From assembly GCA_019096195.1 (NCBI GenBank), contig JAGTXK010000197.1, forward strand, positions 83,039 to 147,038: DNA of 64,000 bases. The letters run 5' to 3'. Under the pieces are notes generated by a model, which was given only the letters and a program-made list of their open reading frames with translations, searched no databases and had not been told where the DNA came from. Positions 49,641-60,364 of the stretch are shown piece after piece; position 1 is the stretch's first letter; the number at the start of each line of letters is the position of its first letter. The position numbers and the translations under genes were made by a program. This DNA is from Boletus sp. NGJ (taxonomy: Eukaryota; Basidiomycota; Agaricomycetes; Boletales; Boletaceae).

Positions 49641-51294
49641 TTGAATCAGCCACCCGCATCATGTTGTATCCACTCCCCAATCGGATCGCAAACATCGCGT
49701 CCCTTGTGCCCACAGCCCGACCAGAAGAGGGACGCCCATAAGAAGAAGACCCAACAGCAGGACAAACCCTCCCCAAAGAAACCCTCAGAATCCACCATAT
49801 GGCCCTGCAGGATCAACGGTTGCAACAAGCAGTTTGCTAGAGAGGCTGATCTCAAGAGACATCAGCGCACGACCAAGCTTCATTCTGTGCCCGGATTGTA
49901 CGTGTTCTTCTAATCATAGGGGCACGCATACACTGACCCTCCACAGTGCTTGTCCCCAGTGTGACGCCAGGTTCACTCGTGTCCGTCTTGGCTTCTTTTT
50001 GCCTCGTGCATCCAGCTGACAACATCCCAGACCGACGCTCTTCGCAGACACCAAAAGTCGAGGTCAGTGCATGCATCTCGCCTTTCTAACTCGTTTCATC
50101 AACCCGTCTGTCAGACATAATGGGGTCGTGATCGAGCCTACAGATAGTGCAGACAGGAGGAGGTCCATGGGTGATGAGGATCCTCATTCCTCTGGTTCGC
50201 GATCAAAGAGCCGCAGTAGAACGCCCTCATCAAAGGAGAATCCCAGCGCCCCCACTTCTCTTCCCCCAACCACGGTCCCTCCAGGCGGTCCACAAAGTTA
50301 TTACCGTCAACACACATTTGCAGGCGGTGAGTGTATGCATTTTCTGGTGCGACTCCCTGATGCTAGCCTTTATAGTCATGATCCCTCCACCCGGAATGAT
50401 GGTCGATGGTCAATATTCCCCCGCCGTTGGGCTCCCTACATCTGCAGCTCGGCTACATCAAGCGAGCTGGCAATCCGCACCTCCTTGGGGCGGCGATGGT
50501 TCTCAACCACCACCTCCTCATATGATGCATCCTGGTTATCCGCAGCCCTATTACAGTGCACCACCGCAATATTATCGGCCTGGTGCCATGATGCATCCCC
50601 CTCCTGACGTCGTGGCCCATCAACAAATACCGAACGGTATTGGTTCATCAAGCAACGGCGAATCATCGTCGTCGCGCAAAGGTAGCCCCGCCATGGCCGT
50701 TGACCCCTCGCTGGATCGTGCCGGAATGGAAGACCCCTCCGAGACTGGTGATGCTGAGACCGCTGTGATCGACCCTTCGTTAGTGTCGTCCTCTGCGAGT
50801 AGTGCTGACAGTGAGTCCCGTTTTACGCATCCCAGAACCATTTATTAATGCAATGTACAATACAATAGATGGAGAGTCTTCCACGGACGGTCAAGTCTTG
50901 AGAGTACCAGAAGCAGGGCCGTCTCCTAGCTGCGGGAAACATATTTCTTCACCCAGTTCAGGCAAACCACCAAATGGGGAAGGGAACGGTAGCGAAAGCG
51001 AAGGAATCATCGTTCAAAATTTGCTTTCACCCGACCAAGACCATCCTTATTCATCTCCTCATTCAGCGCCTTTGGAGCATCCCCTCGAAATGGAACAAAT
51101 ACTCACCGAGGACGGCGAACCCATGTTAAACCCAGGTTGGTTCTTCTTCCTTATATCTTGTCTCCCTGTTGACCCTTTTTGCGCTAGCCGAGTTATTGAC
51201 GCAGGTCAGTACGAGCAACACGACCTCTACGGTACTTGATCTAATGCTCCAGATTCTGAGACAGGAGTCTCTCGCTTCTCCACCTCCTTCATAA
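49641..51294 (+). CDS. C2H2 zinc-finger transcription factor (5' end uncertain)
   Basis: Probable nuclear DNA-binding regulator. The recognised reading starts around 49641, but no good ATG is present in that frame; upstream exons are likely. Finger 1 is WPCRINGCNKQFAREADLKRH followed by QRTTKLH; finger 2, assembled over two introns, is ACPQCDARFTRTDALRRHQ. Between and after them are basic, Ser/Pro-rich and Tyr/Pro-rich stretches (HPGYPQPYYSAPPQYY) that look like activation segments. The C-terminus, spliced from short exons, reads PAELLTQILRQESLASPPPS and ends at 51294. Targets unknown. Confidence 0.82.
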
Positions 51295-51662
51295 ATGTGT
51301 ACTCTACCTCTACCCATGGTATTATATTGACATAACACTCTCATAATCTTCTTCGGGTCACAAATTTTTGGTTGGATATGTTCGTATTACAATACTTGCA
51401 CCCAGCGCGCGTGGACGCGGTGTTTCCGTAGAATGTTTTTAGACGCTCTTCACGCATGTCGATCCAGTTGAACTAATTGATATCACAGTTTGCATTCGAC
51501 CGAAGGTAACGAAAGGTCGTTCAGTGCTACATGCATGCTGTGGAGAGCTGGTGATGCGTCAACATCCAGGTAAAGATACACAAGTATCTCGCTGTTGAGA
51601 GCGAGGGTGGGAGATAGTATATGGTATGAACACAATGCTTGTCAAACTCGTATCGTAACAGA

Positions 51663-53045
51663 TCAGAGCACCTGAACCTTGGGCCATTTGAACTGGGGAC
51701 CGACCTGTTAGCAAAAAAAAAGTAAACATCAATCTCGTCCGACGGTCAAAGCAGAAAAGGCAACACACCAGCTGCACACACATGCCCCCCAACTTGTGCC
51801 CCACCTCGACACACTCAGCGAGGCTCTTCCCAGCAACGTACGCACCCAAGAACCCACCCGCGAACGCATCCCCAGCCCCGTTCGTATCCACGATCAACTC
51901 GCTCGCGATCGGCGTCACCGCAAACACCTTGGCCGGGTTCGCCCCGTCGACGAGAATGGTCGATTCAGGGCCCTGGGTGATCACGACGATGCGCGGGCGC
52001 GTAGTGTTGGCCTTGCGGTAGGTCGCGATGCCCTTGGCGATCTGGGCGATGTCGGTCGTGTCGGATTTGAGGATGGCTTTGGCGTATTCTTGGGCTTCGG
52101 ATTCGTTCCCGATGACGATGTCGGTGTAGGGGAGGACCTGCTCGAGTTGGGCGTTGAAGAATTGAAGGATGAACGGAGCGGAGAGGTTGAGGATAAAGGT
52201 CTGTGCGTGTAGGAAGGGGGATCGATGACGAGAACACGGCACGTGTGTGAGATGGGATGACAAAAGCCGGATGAAATGGACCCTCATACCTTGTTGTTCT
52301 CCGATGCGTGCTTGCTCAGCGTGAGTACTGAACTGACGCCATGCGTGAGGAAGAACCCTTCGACGTAAAACACCTTGGCACCCTGCACGAGCGGGGCAAC
52401 CGTCGCCGATGAGAGATGTGAGTCATCGAAATTTTCAGCGGCACGCAACGTTGTCACCAACGAACTAAAAAAAAGTCGACCGAATCCCTCGTGTCAACGA
52501 TCGCTGGGCCACGAGAACAAGGGTGCGCGAAAGAGGTTCCTACCGGTGGTGACCCGTGAGGACCACAGCACAAGCACCCGTCTTCGCTCCCTTCTTGACG
52601 AGATATACCTCGTCCAACCCTTCTCGCTTGTTCGCCGCCCGCAATTGCTCGGCGAGATCATCATCGCCTACACATCCCGTGTACACCACCGAGCCGGGAG
52701 GGAGGACGTACTAACATGGCATAGTCAGATCGGTCGAGAACACACGATCGTGAGTATATACTCACCGCAGCCCCACGCGCAGCGTTCTGGGACGCTCCTC
52801 CAGCGACGTACGTGACCGGGTAGTTCTTTACGATCTCCTCGTAGCTACGGTGAAACCAGTAGTCAATGATCGTGTTGATGGCGATCAAACGGGAGGATGG
52901 AAGGGTCGACGTACATGGGTTGATGCTTTTCCTCAGCGAGGATTGCGTTGTTGGCCTGGAGATCGTACTTTTTCAAGAGCTCTTCTCCGTCTCGGACCTG
53001 CACATCAAGAAGAGGGTTACCCAAACAGAAAATCTGGTACGACAT
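51663..53045 (-). CDS. Adenosine kinase (PfkB family)
   Basis: Phosphorylates adenosine to AMP in purine salvage and removes adenosine released by the methyl cycle. It starts MSYQIFCLGNPLLDVQV. Conserved blocks: VTYVAGGASQNAARGA (substrate loop), VYTGCVGDDDLAEQL, AKVFYVEGFFLTHG, DIVIGNESEAQEYAK and the anion-hole/catalytic motif DTNGAGDAFAGGFLGAYV, in which the Asp before AFAGG is the catalytic base. It ends VGPQFKWPKVQVL. Several introns of about 50-70 bp. Usual length for the family. Confidence 0.95.
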
Positions 53046-53239
53046 GGCGGGGATGGAGTGCAGGGACGTCGACGGAGAGCTGTGTGGGATCAAGGTTGTG
53101 GAAAGAGATAAGACCAGTCGCGTGGGTCGCCAATCCGGGTTCACACATCACACTAGAGGACACGAATTACCGTGGCGGCGTGGCCACGCCTCTAAGAAAC
53201 CAAACGTTATGTATTCCACAAAGCGAAGACACGAGGGTT

Positions 53240-56110
53240 GAAAGCATGGTAACAGTGACTATAAATGGAGGGAATTTTATGTATCAGCTGCATGGGTTTG
53301 AGAAAAGGTACGGACAACAATACTAGGTACGGTAATACACTGGGCGAATTGGTGGGTAAGAGCAACATTACCAGTTGCTCGAGCCTTGATAGCACACAAG
53401 TCATGGAATGCAACAGAAAAAGCAAAAGGAAGAGACTTGGTGGATGCTAAAGATGCCTTCAGTATCTGGACATCATTATCAGAAAAGAATACAAAGCCTC
53501 TGAACAAAAGAGGCTTTGCAAAGGAGGATGCAACCTTGTTATAGGGCCTGTCTTTAGATGATGAGCTCTCATCAGATGTACCATTGCTGATTTTCACTGC
53601 TCTCAGATACCCTTTCCATGCCTCATCAACATGGATTTCAATGTCTTCCAAGTTCTTTGTGAGACCAAATATTCCACTGGCCTTGGCTTGAGCAGCCTTG
53701 GCCTTTGCTGCGTGCCAAGGTCTGCTCAGGTCCAGATCTTCTTCTGGAGACTGAGTCCTGAGTTTCCTATAGTCTTGCAGAGCCTCTTCTTTCAGGTTTT
53801 CTCCTTCCTCCACCAAAACATCTAGGATAAATGGTGAGCCTTGACGTTTGTGAGGGGTCTTTTGGGGGGTATTCTTGCCACCCTTTCCCTCAGATTGCTC
53901 CAGTTTCCATGCATACCATGGCTGTTTGGCTCCCCACTGCTGCCTATCCTGGTCAAAGACAGGGAGTTTGACTCTCAGTCCAGTCTTGCTTGCATCCAAG
54001 CAAGTGGTAAATCTAGATTAGATATCAGTGATATATCCAAAGAAAAGAAATAAACTGACATATAGGCCAAATGGATGGCTTTTTGATTTCCATATCCAAA
54101 CTCATAGACTGCAGCATCATGAAACTTTGAGTAAAGCCCAACTCTTGTTTCTGCAAGTCCTAGCAAAAGGACCTTTTGGAAGGCCTGCTGTGCTTGTTTG
54201 GGCTCAAGTTTAGAAGCTCTCTTGTCAAAATCTCTAACATGCTCCACTTCTCTCTCAAAGAAGGTAGAGAGATCAGAAGGGGCTGTACAGAGATAAGAGC
54301 TTCTGAACTGCTCTACCAGTGGCTTGCACCAGTTGAGCATTACAGTATCTATGAGGGAAAAAGGATATAGAAAAATAATGCAATTTTACCTCCATCCACT
54401 TACCTCCATCATAATCTTTAAAGAAATAACTTAGTTTGTGCAAATATAATCATCAACCACTTACCTCCACCACCAAGCATGCTGGCTAAAGATTGTTTCC
54501 CTTTGACAGGGAATACAATCACATTGAAGTAATTGCTCAGCTTGGGATGAGCAACTGCTCTAACCTGTATTTCATGGTAAATCATGAATTTCAATATGTG
54601 TGAATATTCACTTTTTGAATATCTGAAGGTAGCCTTGTTGGATTTCTGGACACCTTGGATTTGTATCAATAACATATAAAAAGCCACACCATAAAACAAA
54701 CAAAAACTTACAAGAACATCTCCAAGAATGATATCAGTTTGTTCACCAGTGGTGGGATTGATGATTGGTTCAGAAGATCTGAAGTGGATTTCACCCTCTT
54801 CCAAGACACCATAAGGATCTAGAAATACAATCAGAAAAAGAGTCACAATATAAAAGATAGCTACCAGGAACAATGTAAGCTTCACATGATTCCATAACTG
54901 GAATGTGAAACCTCTCCACATATTCATTGACAACTAGAGTGATGACAGACTCTAGTTTTCGAAACAGGAGATCCAGGTTCAAAGGGTGAAAACCGGCTTG
55001 GAGAAGCTCCAGCACAGTCTCATGAAGAGTAAGAGGATGGCCAGAAAATCTCTTGTGGCTGGCATCAACCAGGGGTCCAGCCTGGTGATAATCTGGATCA
55101 CCATCACCATCACCCTCCTCATCCTCTCGACCTTGGTCATCTATAGGGATAAGCTGCCCAAGACCTAGGGCACGAGCTTGCCCTGTGAGTAGTCTTCTTA
55201 GCCTACTCACCACAATGCTGCCTGCCCTTTCCACTGCCTTCCAGACCATAACCATGGATTGAGGTTGGGTCCAATCAATAAATGACTGGATCTCCTCCCT
55301 TAAACCCAGTGCCATCAAGTCCTTCAGAACCTGAGGGTTAATTCCATTATGGCAAAGATTTATCAGGGTCTGTGATGATAACCTGCTAGGGTGGGTTACC
55401 CTGGAAGGAGCAAGGAGATCAAAAGTTCTCTGAGCTCGACCAAGCTCAGAAGTTTTCCCCAATTTAATCTTGGTTTGGGATGGTCTAATCCAGATAGTGG
55501 CAGGTCCATCTGGAATCTGCTGAAGAGGATCTGGATGTAACACCCACATCCCTTTTGAACCACCTATACGTCCTTGTACAGCAGTGGGCCTGATGCTATA
55601 CTTCATAAGCCTCATGATTCGGGTGAGAGCAGCCCCATTAATGAGGCCACACCCATCAGTAAGCACCTTCTCAGCAGGTGCTTTACCTTCCCAGTCCTTG
55701 GGGCTGACATCTAATGAAGAAGTTGTATCAGTTTGGTGGCCACACAAAGAGATTACTCACATATGTCATCTACATCTTCATGGATGATGTGTTGGGGTTC
55801 AAATTCAATGGTAGGGATAGATGTAGACAACCCCAATGCCCATCGAGTTGACCATTTACTGATTGGCTAGCAAATGTGATATTAACTTTGACTTTACTCA
55901 GAACTACACCCTTACCTGCCGGTCATTCGAGCCAAGGGGGTTGTGCCAACAAATAAAGTCCTTCAGAGATATACGGAATTGGTCTCCATCCTGGCTACTT
56001 GCAGATCTTTCGAAATCTTGATTGGTCTCTATCAAATACATGCTACCTTCCTTTGCATGAAAGGGTAGGAAGACCCTCCCACAAAGGATGAACTTGCTGG
56101 AGCTCAGCAG
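53240..56110. other. CpG-depleted block spanning most of the RdRP gene
   Basis: Counting by eye, bases 53401-55900 contain about ten CpG dinucleotides, with only three between 53401 and about 54965. A 60-base line at 56161-56220 alone has eight. The right-hand change falls inside one RdRP exon (55916-56384). The left edge is just beyond the RdRP stop codon. Neighbouring genes are CpG-rich. Confidence 0.85.
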
Positions 56111-57431
56111 GAGGCGGACATCATCACCATGCTTGTACAGGAGATCATCGGCAACGCGGACTTGGAGTATGCGACGTGAGCCGAGGTACCGAGAGAACCG
56201 GTGGGAGCGGCGAATTTCGGGCTTCTCGAGGTGTATCAAGAATCGACCGTGCGCCCGTACCAGCCGGCCGACTTGTTGGATCCGACCCCCGTACCAGCCG
56301 TCCTTGCCCTTCCACGGACCCATTCCGCCGAGTCCGCGGCCTTTGTTCTCGAGGATCGCATCCTGCTCGCGGTCATACTCGATCCTAGTAACATCATGAG
56401 TAAACGTATTGCGTCGAATAAGCCCCATGAAATGAAAAAAAATGCACCAAAGTTCTGCCGCGGACGCCGGAGGCACCTCGCGCCGTTGCATTACGGCTGC
56501 GACTGTATGTGCGGCATGGACATTGGTCCCGCGGAGTTGATGGATTTTCTCCAAGGTTAGCGAGGACCATGTCCAGCTTCCATTAGTGACACCACGTGCG
56601 ATTTCATACACCGTTCCCCAGGCGAGGTTATTTGCGTCAAGCTGGGACTGGGCCGATGCGTCGTGGGCGATGACGAAGGGGTCGAGGTCACTCCCGAACT
56701 CGGAGCTGCTGGCTTGCGGGGGGTTGCGCAACGCGCTCGCCGTGGCATGAAGCCGTTTTGCCGGTTGAGGTTGGGTAGTCGGAGAAGGAGGAGGTGAAGT
56801 CGGGCCCGGGACATCGTGCATATTGGTGGTGCGTTTAGAAGGGACAGCGACAGCGGACGCCGGACGCATAGCGATGTAGGGTGATGTCTTCATGGCACTG
56901 GTGGTAGCACCAATACTGATAACTGTAGATCGATTGATGAGTGTAGAAATGGGCCCGGAAGTTGCCCGGTCGCGGCAAGAACTCACGTTCTTCCACTGAT
57001 CGAAGGAATCAGTGTTCGGATTCAGACAAGGGTGAGAGCAGTGGAGCGTCATGGGGACGGGACCTACCCTGCATTTCCTCTGAGCTGGAATCAACGTCCA
57101 TCGGTGAAGGCGAGCGGTCTGATATCGTCGCCCTTTGGATTCTCAAAGTCCGCGTGCGCTCCGACAGGGTGACAGGAGACGTTGACAACTCGGTATCTAT
57201 CGCTGTTGTTTCCGGGCCTAAAGAATTGAGAACAGATGAGGAACATGGATGATGGGTTGGATTATCGCCAGCGATGGCGTTTGATACATACCCAGGATTT
57301 TCATTTGTTCTGCGAAGACGTCTAGTCCCTCGGAATATTCTTCTTCGTCCTCCTGTGAAAAGGGAAGAAAAAAACACAAAGTCAGCATAAATCCTCTTTT
57401 CAGGTATGGTTGCGCACGAAATCAATCGGCA
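53277..57431 (-). CDS. RNA-dependent RNA polymerase, quelling type (QDE-1/RdRP family)
   Basis: Makes double-stranded RNA from aberrant transcripts for RNA interference. Proposed exons: 57431-57417, 57352-57292, 57217-57068, 56995-56987, 56922-56448, 56384-55916, 55866-55761, 55710-54865, 54818-54712, 54653-54612, 54564-54465, 54414-54403, 54348-54060 and 54012-53277; total 3,417 nt, 1,138 residues, all phases consistent. Motifs: LTDGCGLINGAAL, SIRPTAVQGRIGGSKGMW, DPYGVLEEGEI, GDVLVSRNPTRLPSDIQK, then VIVFPVKGKQSLASMLGGG and catalytic DYDGD. C-terminal FTTCLDASKTGLRVKLP is also typical. The 12-nt exon (54403-54414) holds the catalytic core. The N-terminus is acidic and Ser/Pro-rich; the first exons are less sure, and an alternative start is ATG at 56893. 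Confidence 0.9.
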
Positions 57432-57814
57432 TGATTGTGTGGTTGATTTGAAGTTTGGAAGTAGCTTAAACGTGCGTTGATGGTAGTAGCAGTTCAAGCG
57501 AGAAGTCCCCAAAAAGGCGCTCGGAATGAGACGAAATTGTGAACCACGATTTCGCGCGCGCTTTGCGTATTGAATTTGCTGTGGCGACGAATGATATCGA
57601 TATCGATGGGTCCCAGCCTTGGTGCTTTTCTGATACAGTAGGATTCGTCGAGTCTGCAGCGAGGCACCAACTCGCAAGGTCTCAGGGCATTCATGGCATG
57701 GTGCTTGCTGTCACGCGTAAAAGCAATGTTCACAAAGGGGGCGAAAATCCAAGGACAGAAAGATAGAGATTATGTCTTATTACAAAGAGCTTACAACGAT
57801 CATAAAATAAGCGG

Positions 57815-58914
57815 TTACTTGCGTGCAAAGGTGATCTGTAGAACGGATAAGTACGAGACGAACAATCAAATAAGAAACAAGCCTTGATCTTGTTCTCTCC
57901 ATCGAGCTTGTAGTTGTGCAAAGCATCCTTGGCAACTCCTGCGCTCGTCTCGTCCATATACTCCACGAAAGCGATGTCTCGTTTCGTGGGAATGAGCCGG
58001 ACTTCGTGAAGGTTCGGATATCTGAAGAATTGCATTCAACAGACGTGGTGGGGAAATAAGGGCAAGAGGCTAACTGAGAGAAGAGTGCCATAAGTTGGTC
58101 CTTGGTGACACTTTCCGGTAGATTTTGTAGGAATAAAATTTTGTTAGGCGGGAGATATTCGTCTGGCATTTGTACAGCTTGTCGTTTGGGAGCGGGAGCC
58201 GCAGTAGTACCGTCGACTGATGACGATGGGTCAGTCAAACAGTAAAGTAAGAAGGGTGCAAGTCTACTTTCTGCAGCCAATCTCTTCGAACGAAACTTTT
58301 GCTTGAGAGGATTGGAATAGCGAGTCGTTCCTTGGTATTAGCAATGGATTAAATGTGCACAGGCAAGCGGTGAGTTTGGCATACGTTTGTGCTCGGCTCT
58401 CTGAGCTTTGTGCGCCTCGAAACTTTCAACATCCAGCCGTTTCACGACCGCGTCCGACCTCGTTCTGGCAAATGATATTTGCTGTGGCGGAGTGTTAGTA
58501 CGATGGAATCGATCGTCAACGAGAGATGTCCTACCATGGGTTTTGAGTACAGAGGAAATCCCCGGACCTCTCTCATTGCTTTGGCGGCGATCTCAGATGA
58601 TGCGAACGACACGAATGCTTGACCGCGCATCCGTAGATTGCTGTGGGCGACGACATCTAGGACTTCACCATATGATTTGAAAAGACCTCGCAAAGATGCT
58701 TTAAGTACTGTTTCGATATGGCCGTCAACTGACTAGAATGAACATTTTATCGGGAACGCTGACCGTCGACCTTTATCTTCTCGTTGAGATTTTGGATATA
58801 AAGGGTCTCTGAAGCGATTTCATCTTGCGGTGGAGGTTGGGCGGCATCGTCAGGGACTGCGGGCGCGACTTGGGCAGGAATTTGGTTTAATGGGGGAGTC
58901 TGAACGTCAGCCAT
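57815..58914 (-). CDS. U1A/U2B''-type spliceosomal snRNP protein (two RRMs)
   Basis: RNA-binding protein of the U1 or U2 snRNP. It starts MADVQTPPLNQIPAQ. RRM1 includes ETLYIQNLNEKIKVDVLKAS, LRGLFKSYGEVLDVVAHSN and RGQAFVSFASSEIAAKAM, ending QISFARTRSD. A basic linker (NPLKQKFRSKRLAAE) follows. RRM2 has NKILFLQNLPESVTKDQL, YPNLHEVRLIPTKRDIAFVE and ITFARK at the stop (57815). Exons include 58914-58764, 58707-58535 and 58481-58385. The last intron (57836-57882, 47 bp) begins GC, not GT, yet joins KIK to ITFARK in frame. One protein of this type often serves both snRNPs in fungi, so U1A versus U2B'' is not decided. Confidence 0.9.
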
Positions 58915-59250
58915 GGCGGTTGCGGTTGGGAGTCGACGAGCGCGCCTGTTTGGTCTTGATATGACAAATTTCCTCTTCTGTACATGCCACACTTCCCTCC
59001 AATTTCGGGCTCAAAAACCATGACCGTAATAGGTGGGATTTCTAACCTACATACACTATGTACAACGACCGCGCTGCGCCAGGTTTCTAGTGTTACAGAA
59101 ATCCTGAATTTTTTTTTTCTATTCCCGTGCGAAAGGTGCCGCTTTCGGGATTTGCCGTGCTTCATATGACTGCTGCGCCGACTGTCGTTGCTACTGTACC
59201 AGAGCGCTTGACTCTCGGCTGGACCACTTGTGCAAACTTACCACTTGTTC

Positions 59251-59990
59251 ATGGGGCGCTGGACGCAGTACGACGAGGTGAGCCATATTTTCACAAGGCT
59301 GTCCTGCGTCAACCGACATACCATATCTAGGACGATTACAGACTTCCCGAGGGAGTGAAGCGCATTGGCTATGATGCCGACACTGGGTGCTACTACTTTC
59401 GTGATCGGGAAGGGGTTGTGTACAAGGGTCCTGAAGGATCCGAGTTCGGAGAGTTAACCCAAAGTACCGATCTGCCGCTCGTATAGTAGACCACAACCTA
59501 ATTTTTGTTTAATAGTTACCCAACTGCCTGTCACTGTCTCTGCGGAAGCAGGCGGTGACAATGACGTCGAGGCTGCACCTGCTCGTGGTGACGGTTACCA
59601 ACCTCTTGCAGTAGATGAGGTTCGTACGCTGCTATTTGGATTGCATATGTGGCTGACCTGGACTACTCGGCTCAGCACGGCTCTCGTCATGCTCTCCGAG
59701 GAGGTGCTTATCGAACGCTTTTCCCCTTCTTCCTTATCATCGCGGTCATCCTCTTGCTCATCTGGCGGCTCGCATTTTCACCCACTCTTGCCGCACCCGC
59801 CCCTTGCCCCAGCACAACGATACCGTATATCATTCAACCTGGTGATAACTGTTGGGAAATCGCTCGTCGCTATAACTCAACCTTGGATAAATTCCGCATC
59901 GTGAATCCCAAGGTTGTTTGCAGTGATCTACACCCGGGAGACCGAGTTTGCGTCCCAGATGAAGGGTCCTCCATAAGCAGAGTCTTTTGA
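59251..59990 (+). CDS. Membrane-anchored LysM (CBM50) protein
   Basis: Predicted single-pass type II membrane protein, 192 residues, with one extracellular LysM domain; LysM binds chitin or peptidoglycan GlcNAc. Exons are 59251-59277, 59331-59463, 59516-59619 and 59676-59990. It begins MGRWTQYDEDDYRLPEG, then a tandem-aromatic stretch (GYDADTGCYYFRDREG). The TM helix is FPFFLIIAVILLLIWRLAF. The LysM domain reads IIQPGDNCWEIARRYNSTLD, then NPKVVCSDLHPGDRVCVP, with three Cys. No N-terminal signal peptide, so it is probably retained in the membrane facing the wall. Confidence 0.83.
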
Positions 59991-60364
59991 TTTCATGCAG
60001 CTGAGTGACTTTCTTGTTTCTCCACGTATATCGCCATCACTTGTACCATATCGCTTTACAAACTGGAACATTTCATCGTTAGAGCATACGTTTGGTCACA
60101 ATGCAATGCCGTGTCTCACTCGGACTGCGTGTGACGTTGAAGAGGCTAGGACGGCACTGACTAGTATGGCTACACGCGTTCCACTTTGCACAGCCACCTC
60201 GTCACATTCTCATCGTGGGAATAATTGCACAGCCATCTCGGCATGTTGAATTATCCTGGTTCCGTCCAACCTGCAACTTTCCTCGACCCCCTTACGATCA
60301 CCTGCACGAATTCACGACCCTCAGAGATATTGATAACATATTCACTTTCCGCATATTCTAACAA

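Follow-up and report, generated by a model that had tools for sequence, protein, structure and literature searches.

In basidiomycetes, CpG methylation is reported in reviews to be the work of DNMT1 and DNMT5 (PMC7862722, PMC13297926). CpG-biased C-to-T decay of transposable elements is reported from basidiomycetes such as Microbotryum (PMC4352252), and CpG hypermutation in genes as well as repeats from Rhizoctonia solani AG8 (PMC4014442). Fungi are reported to have mostly lost gene-body methylation, apart from some exceptions (PMC13297926); it is recorded in U. reesii and M. robertsii (PMC7862722), and gene-body CpG methylation is reported in the rust Puccinia striiformis (PMC12129025). A 2026 study reports that average methylation levels do not predict CpG mutation rates (PMC12994199). 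Among the titles and abstract openings listed in literature searches, we found no CpG-depleted RdRP gene, or single-copy gene of any kind, in basidiomycetes. Here, we describe an RdRP gene of Boletus sp. NGJ that carries such a mark.

The gene lies in a 64-kb stretch of DNA, the whole of which was analysed (hereafter the window), from a genome assembly of 32.8 Mb in 141 contigs. An earlier note on this DNA had pointed to a CpG desert at 53240-56110. This segment holds 18 CpGs, and the CpG observed/expected ratio (o/e), which the note had proposed as a check, is 0.13 there vs. 0.99 in the whole window; the o/e of TpG and CpA is 1.32 and 1.27, respectively, vs. 1.14 and 1.13 for comparison. A two-boundary likelihood fit over 50001-60000 gives the desert a maximum-likelihood extent of 53384 to 56115 (likelihood ratio 256), with support intervals of 53338-53436 for the left edge and 55916-56155 for the right edge. 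Of the 627 cytosines between the two edges, 14 precede a G, compared with 521 of 1825 in the remainder of 50001-60000. The longest CpG-free gap in the desert measures 1115 bp (53845-54960), while the longest one found elsewhere extends over 124 bp. The desert is thus real, and the roughly ten CpGs that the note had counted in 2.5 kb were found as exactly ten, from 53711 to 55844. Its left limit has to be moved, however, because the fitted edge lies near 53384, in the last coding exon.

The RdRP gene is on the reverse strand. Its modelled coding sequence (CDS), including the stop codon, occupies 53277..56893, encodes 1071 amino acids in nine exons separated by introns of 46-58 bp, and was spliced by hand into a frame that is open from ATG to stop. 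The exons, all on the reverse strand, are as follows: exon 1 at 55916..56893, exon 2 at 55761..55866, exon 3 at 54865..55710, exon 4 at 54712..54818, exon 5 at 54612..54653, exon 6 at 54465..54564, exon 7 at 54404..54415, exon 8 at 54060..54348 and exon 9, with the stop codon, at 53277..54012. Exon 5 has only 42 nt and encodes VSRNPTRLPSDIQK, a stretch that ends in PSDIQK. Exon 7 is a microexon of 12 nt which, together with its splice junctions, forms the catalytic DYDGD (DxDGD motif). The open frame runs on upstream of 56893, and the true start of the gene may lie there.

The splice model is supported by the Pfam scores. The spliced protein matches the RdRP family PF05183 at residues 220-894 in one continuous hit of 340.6 bits (profile positions 6-579 of 582), while two of the six raw frames scored 112.2 and 50.4 bits and the other four found no family. 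The best solved relative of the spliced protein in a phmmer search is QDE-1 (PDB 5fsw_A, E 5e-39), with which both DYDGD and PSDIQKVRAV are aligned; for the CpG-normal 5′ part, a search with 199 of its residues yielded no solved relative (one match, E 0.39). By its PF05183 domain and DxDGD motif, the protein belongs to the cellular RdRPs of the QDE-1 type. We take the locus to be a native, intact-looking gene, and it is presumably expressed. The catalytic core with DYDGD and PSDIQKVRAV is common to this protein and QDE-1; the catalytic motif is made across a 12-nt microexon in the present gene, whose role in silencing is only predicted. The earlier note had described the low-CpG sequence as an open, spliced coding region with RdRP motifs and not simply the product of mutational decay, and both statements hold: the frame runs for 1071 codons without an internal stop, with its splice sites in place and its Pfam score high. 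Decay as a pseudogene is rejected on the same grounds.

Both edges of the desert fall inside coding exons. The left edge lies in exon 9, which continues beyond it for about 107 bp, stop codon included. The right edge lies in exon 1 at residue 260, within the Pfam RdRP stretch, and is accompanied by a shoulder (55844..56115) in which five CpGs at 55844-56011 are followed by a jump to normal density inside the exon. The sharp edge inside an exon that the note had reported is therefore correct as to the exon, but it is sharp only to about 0.3 kb. Likewise, the dense jump beyond the edge was found again with a different count: nine CpGs, rather than eight, start within 60 bp (56149-56208). On the other side of the edge, codons 1-260 of the modelled CDS (56114..56893, reverse strand) are CpG-normal, with 80 CpGs in 780 bases and 24 CGN to 1 AGR arginine codons. 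With its shoulder counted in, the desert takes up 811 of the 1071 modelled codons, a share slightly larger than the two thirds first claimed. As far as CpG can serve as a proxy, the gene body is stripped and both ends of the CDS are spared. Gene-body methylation is known to spare gene ends, and the layout of the desert resembles it in this respect.

The loss of CpG is specific to its context. The control consisted of 13 stop-to-stop frames, each at least 250 codons long and taken mechanically from the parts of the window outside 53000-57800, which are not proven genes; for the fourfold-site counts, the Fisher test and the codon-use χ2, the 5′ part of the RdRP gene was added to give 14 frames. 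Before G, C makes up 0.04 of third-base C+T in the desert vs. 0.48 in the 13 control frames, while before other bases the fraction is 0.52 vs. 0.59. The latter pair of values rejects a general shift towards AT, and likewise codon choice, as the source of the desert. NCG codons account for 0.01 of NCN codons in the desert vs. 0.23 in the control frames, and the eight introns, which amount to about 400 bp together, contain no CpG. Arginine is nearly as frequent as in the control frames (5.4% vs. 6.6% of codons), but it is encoded by CGN and AGR codons at 12:32 as opposed to 222:57. The surviving CpGs are biased towards these codons: 12 of 18 lie in CGN codons, compared with 246 of the 1010 CpGs in the control frames and 5′ part (Fisher p 2e-4). 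A single transition could remove only 6 of the 18 without changing the protein, compared with 56 of the 80 CpGs in the 5′ part. Codon use in all contexts departs strongly from that of the window (χ2/df 4.99 in the desert vs. at most 2.03 in the 14 frames; 2.10 in five frames, some perhaps overlapping, of three other RdRP loci). Outside CpG contexts it is near native, with χ2/df 1.94 vs. 0.67-2.03, a value near the top of the range in the set with the largest codon count. A CpG-specific loss, survivors in arginine codons and otherwise near-native codon use are the trace expected of CpG mutation pressure under purifying selection.

The products of the loss were examined at fourfold-degenerate sites. 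The test comprised two of the four fourfold classes; the single NCG, the class after C and before G, and the non-CpG-forming class were left out. For the class after C and before G (A 16, C 2, T 30), calculation by hand indicates that both models predict about the same. One-step deamination is rejected in the two tested classes (p 9e-7 and 0.0016), as A is not dominant at third positions after C, nor is T before G. Proportional redistribution fits the same classes (p 0.25 and 0.6), i.e. lost CpGs gave way to the other bases according to their shares and not mainly to the deamination product. The excess of TpG and CpA that the earlier note had led one to expect is thus present overall, while the fourfold sites lack a simple surplus. 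A methylation process would consequently have to be old, with further turnover, or the cause would have to be another one. Three readings can be given of the redistribution, namely: old pressure followed by site turnover, selection, or sequence that had long been CpG-poor elsewhere. We prefer the first because codon use is otherwise near native.

The last of these readings corresponds to the capture of foreign sequence, in which the 3′ three quarters of the gene would derive from an organism whose genome is poor in CpG, and would have been fused to a native 5′ end. An abrupt compositional edge inside an exon and fourfold sites that look long CpG-poor are both what such a fusion would leave. 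Yet codon use outside CpG contexts stays in the native range, albeit at its upper end, and a single Pfam stretch (residues 220-894) runs across the edge at residue 260. We therefore regard the capture suggested by the earlier note as very unlikely.

In order to see how far the mark extends to other genes, we surveyed a small sample of the same genome. Three other RdRP loci have CpG o/e of 0.92-1.07, one of them with a low flank (locus L079, see below). Five Argonaute segments, taken at five of six Argonaute places, range from 0.86 to 1.10; ten kinase segments, out of 147 matches listed, from 0.66 to 1.44; and five methyltransferase loci, two of which overlap, from 0.97 to 1.13. None of these 20 gene segments and three RdRP loci carries the desert mark. 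In this small sample, the mark thus characterizes neither RNAi genes as a group nor genes at large, and the idea that it is common to RNAi genes finds no support in the CpG-normal RdRP loci and Argonaute segments. In a broader set of 257 hand-placed, non-random windows of 500 bp (136 from 22 other loci, L057-L078, and 121 from the window outside the desert; L079 is not among them), the mean CpG o/e is 0.98 (sd 0.19) and five values fall below 0.3, four of them in locus L073 and one in L074. Some of the kinase matches occur with identical scores on two contigs (C59:685153 and C127:71899; C35:236590 and C50:56528), which may reflect uncollapsed haplotypes or segmental duplications.

CpG-specific decay is present elsewhere in the genome. 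Among the best 150 of 471 reverse-transcriptase domain candidates, the stops comprise 98 TGA, 7 TAG and 3 TAA (108 in total), a surplus of TGA such as CGA-to-TGA changes would give; the 108 stops are not independent events, since related copies share them. No match on contig C14 is among these 150. Thirty fetched reverse-transcriptase loci span CpG o/e of 0.49 to 1.23, so that many elements are not decayed. The 2-kb desert sampled at L073 is a dispersed repeat with at least 76 further match segments. The C5-methyltransferase family is represented by five matches at four places, one of which adjoins a BAH domain.

Several further CpG-poor segments were encountered. The first 500 bp of L074 have CpG o/e of 0.15. 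A low block at the end of L054 (o/e 0.23) continues as L079 (C77:70001-74000), which has o/e of 0.20-0.35 over 4 kb and begins at a distance of about 1.8 kb from the RdRP match of that contig; by their motifs, its frames may belong to a retroelement, while no Pfam or PDB name was found for the L073 and L079 fragments. L056 (C81:1729000-1737000) has o/e of 0.07 over 8 kb, including about 7.6 kb with 14 CpGs near the end of contig C81. At the start of this stretch, in CpG-free DNA, is a 5.8S rRNA-like relic whose CpGs, read against a 5.8S sequence, presumably became TpG/CpA. A Tc1-type transposase (Pfam HTH_Tnp_Tc3_2) is found at L056:2235-2861 and in L095 (C114:505500-506200), with at least 39 other copies that are 97-99% identical over 282 bp. 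One 701-bp stretch with a copy of it has 0 CpGs vs. 35 expected, and in the L056 frame 11 of 11 arginines are AGR, with C/T before G at 0:25.

A search of the assembly with 53600-56200, queried in two pieces with 53384-53599 left out, gave no second DNA copy, i.e. the sequence matches only itself. No close RdRP paralogue was found either, and protein matches to the three other RdRP loci show 23-42% identity among those at E 0.15 or better. A living duplicate as the cause of the desert is therefore not supported, and the search for paralogues proposed in the earlier note gave no close one within these bounds. The hallmarks of classical RIP are likewise missing: in place of a repeated-DNA target, 53600-56200 is without a partner in today's assembly, although a former copy may have been lost, and in place of a CpA-type target and stop-laden frames, CpA o/e is raised, the loss is CpG-specific and the frame is open.

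These results bear on the view that the desert is a conversion tract or former repeat, i.e. that a duplicated or mobile segment was decayed by repeat-directed CpG mutation and then copied back, or that its other copy was lost, in which case the edges would be the ends of the former duplicate. The edges are indeed fairly sharp and lie inside exons, the sampled desert at L073 is a dispersed repeat, and the CpG-free transposase frame is multi-copy, which indicates that mobile DNA can harbour coding sequence without CpG. However, neither a second DNA copy of 53600-56200 nor a close paralogue was found in the assembly, and a burst of repeat-directed mutation would be expected to produce stop codons and the products of one-step deamination, neither of which is seen. 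Conversion with a methylated paralogue, as the note had put it, also lacks a visible donor, the other three RdRP loci being CpG-normal and distant. We consider this view unlikely.

The transposase is also relevant to selection against CpG itself. Here, the segment would have shed its CpGs to protect a silencing gene in cis, since silencing by CpG methylation has no target in DNA that lacks CpG. The redistribution seen at fourfold sites, with no excess of products, agrees with this, as does the like codon signature of the multi-copy transposase, with all of its arginines AGR and no C before G. On the other hand, the first quarter of the modelled gene is CpG-normal, so that the protection would be only partial, and the introns are equally stripped, as mutation would also give. 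We judge selection of this kind to be quite unlikely; a wider version, in which sequences that must stay expressed (the RdRP gene and the multi-copy Tc1-type transposon) were adaptively recoded to be nearly CpG-free and thereby unmethylatable, seems to us no less improbable.

The reading that we favour, and hold to be reasonably likely, is that a native RdRP gene was long exposed to CpG-specific mutation, probably through methylation and deamination, while its protein was kept by purifying selection. The inner 2.7 kb of the gene would have spent a long time in a locally CpG-hypermutable state, in which methylated CpGs would have deaminated to TpG/CpA and purifying selection would have retained the splice sites as well as the protein; ~0.8 kb at the start of the modelled CDS and ~0.1 kb at its end would have escaped. 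The agent was presumably 5-methylcytosine, and the hypermutable state appears to have been long-lived. Of the three explanations offered by the earlier note, methylation followed by selection fits best, through the CpG-specific loss, the stripped introns and the arginine-bound survivors; the surplus it would predict at fourfold sites did not appear. As a counterpoint, no other gene in the small sample has the mark, and the favoured reading does not account for the choice of the RdRP gene. The 2026 report on methylation levels and CpG mutation rates (PMC12994199) also counts against it.

If the desert is a methylation scar, it is the record of a methylated domain that had fairly sharp bounds and persisted for long within a single functional-looking gene of the silencing machinery, although fungi are reported to have largely lost gene-body methylation (PMC13297926). 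It also raises the question of whether an RNAi gene is regulated by the chromatin system that it may itself serve. A sequence-only screen for past gene methylation in fungi could look for genes that are intact and single-copy and have CpG o/e below 0.2.

In comparison with the systems described so far, the locus shares with the decay reported for Microbotryum a CpG-specific loss, in a genome that here too contains C5-methyltransferase genes and decayed repeats; that decay is reported on copies of transposable elements, whereas the present target is an intact gene with no stop, for which no second copy was found. With the reported changes in R. solani AG8, it shares a CpG bias and the involvement of coding regions, but those are SNP-level and genome-wide, while here one gene is near saturation and the other sampled genes are normal. 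To gene-body methylation as reported from other fungi, it is likened by a desert that lies inside the gene, spares both ends and includes the introns; it differs in being read from a CpG proxy, with no other marked gene in the small sample. A type of scar better known from repeated DNA thus covers three quarters of an intact RNA-silencing gene, where it was most likely left by long-lasting methylation.
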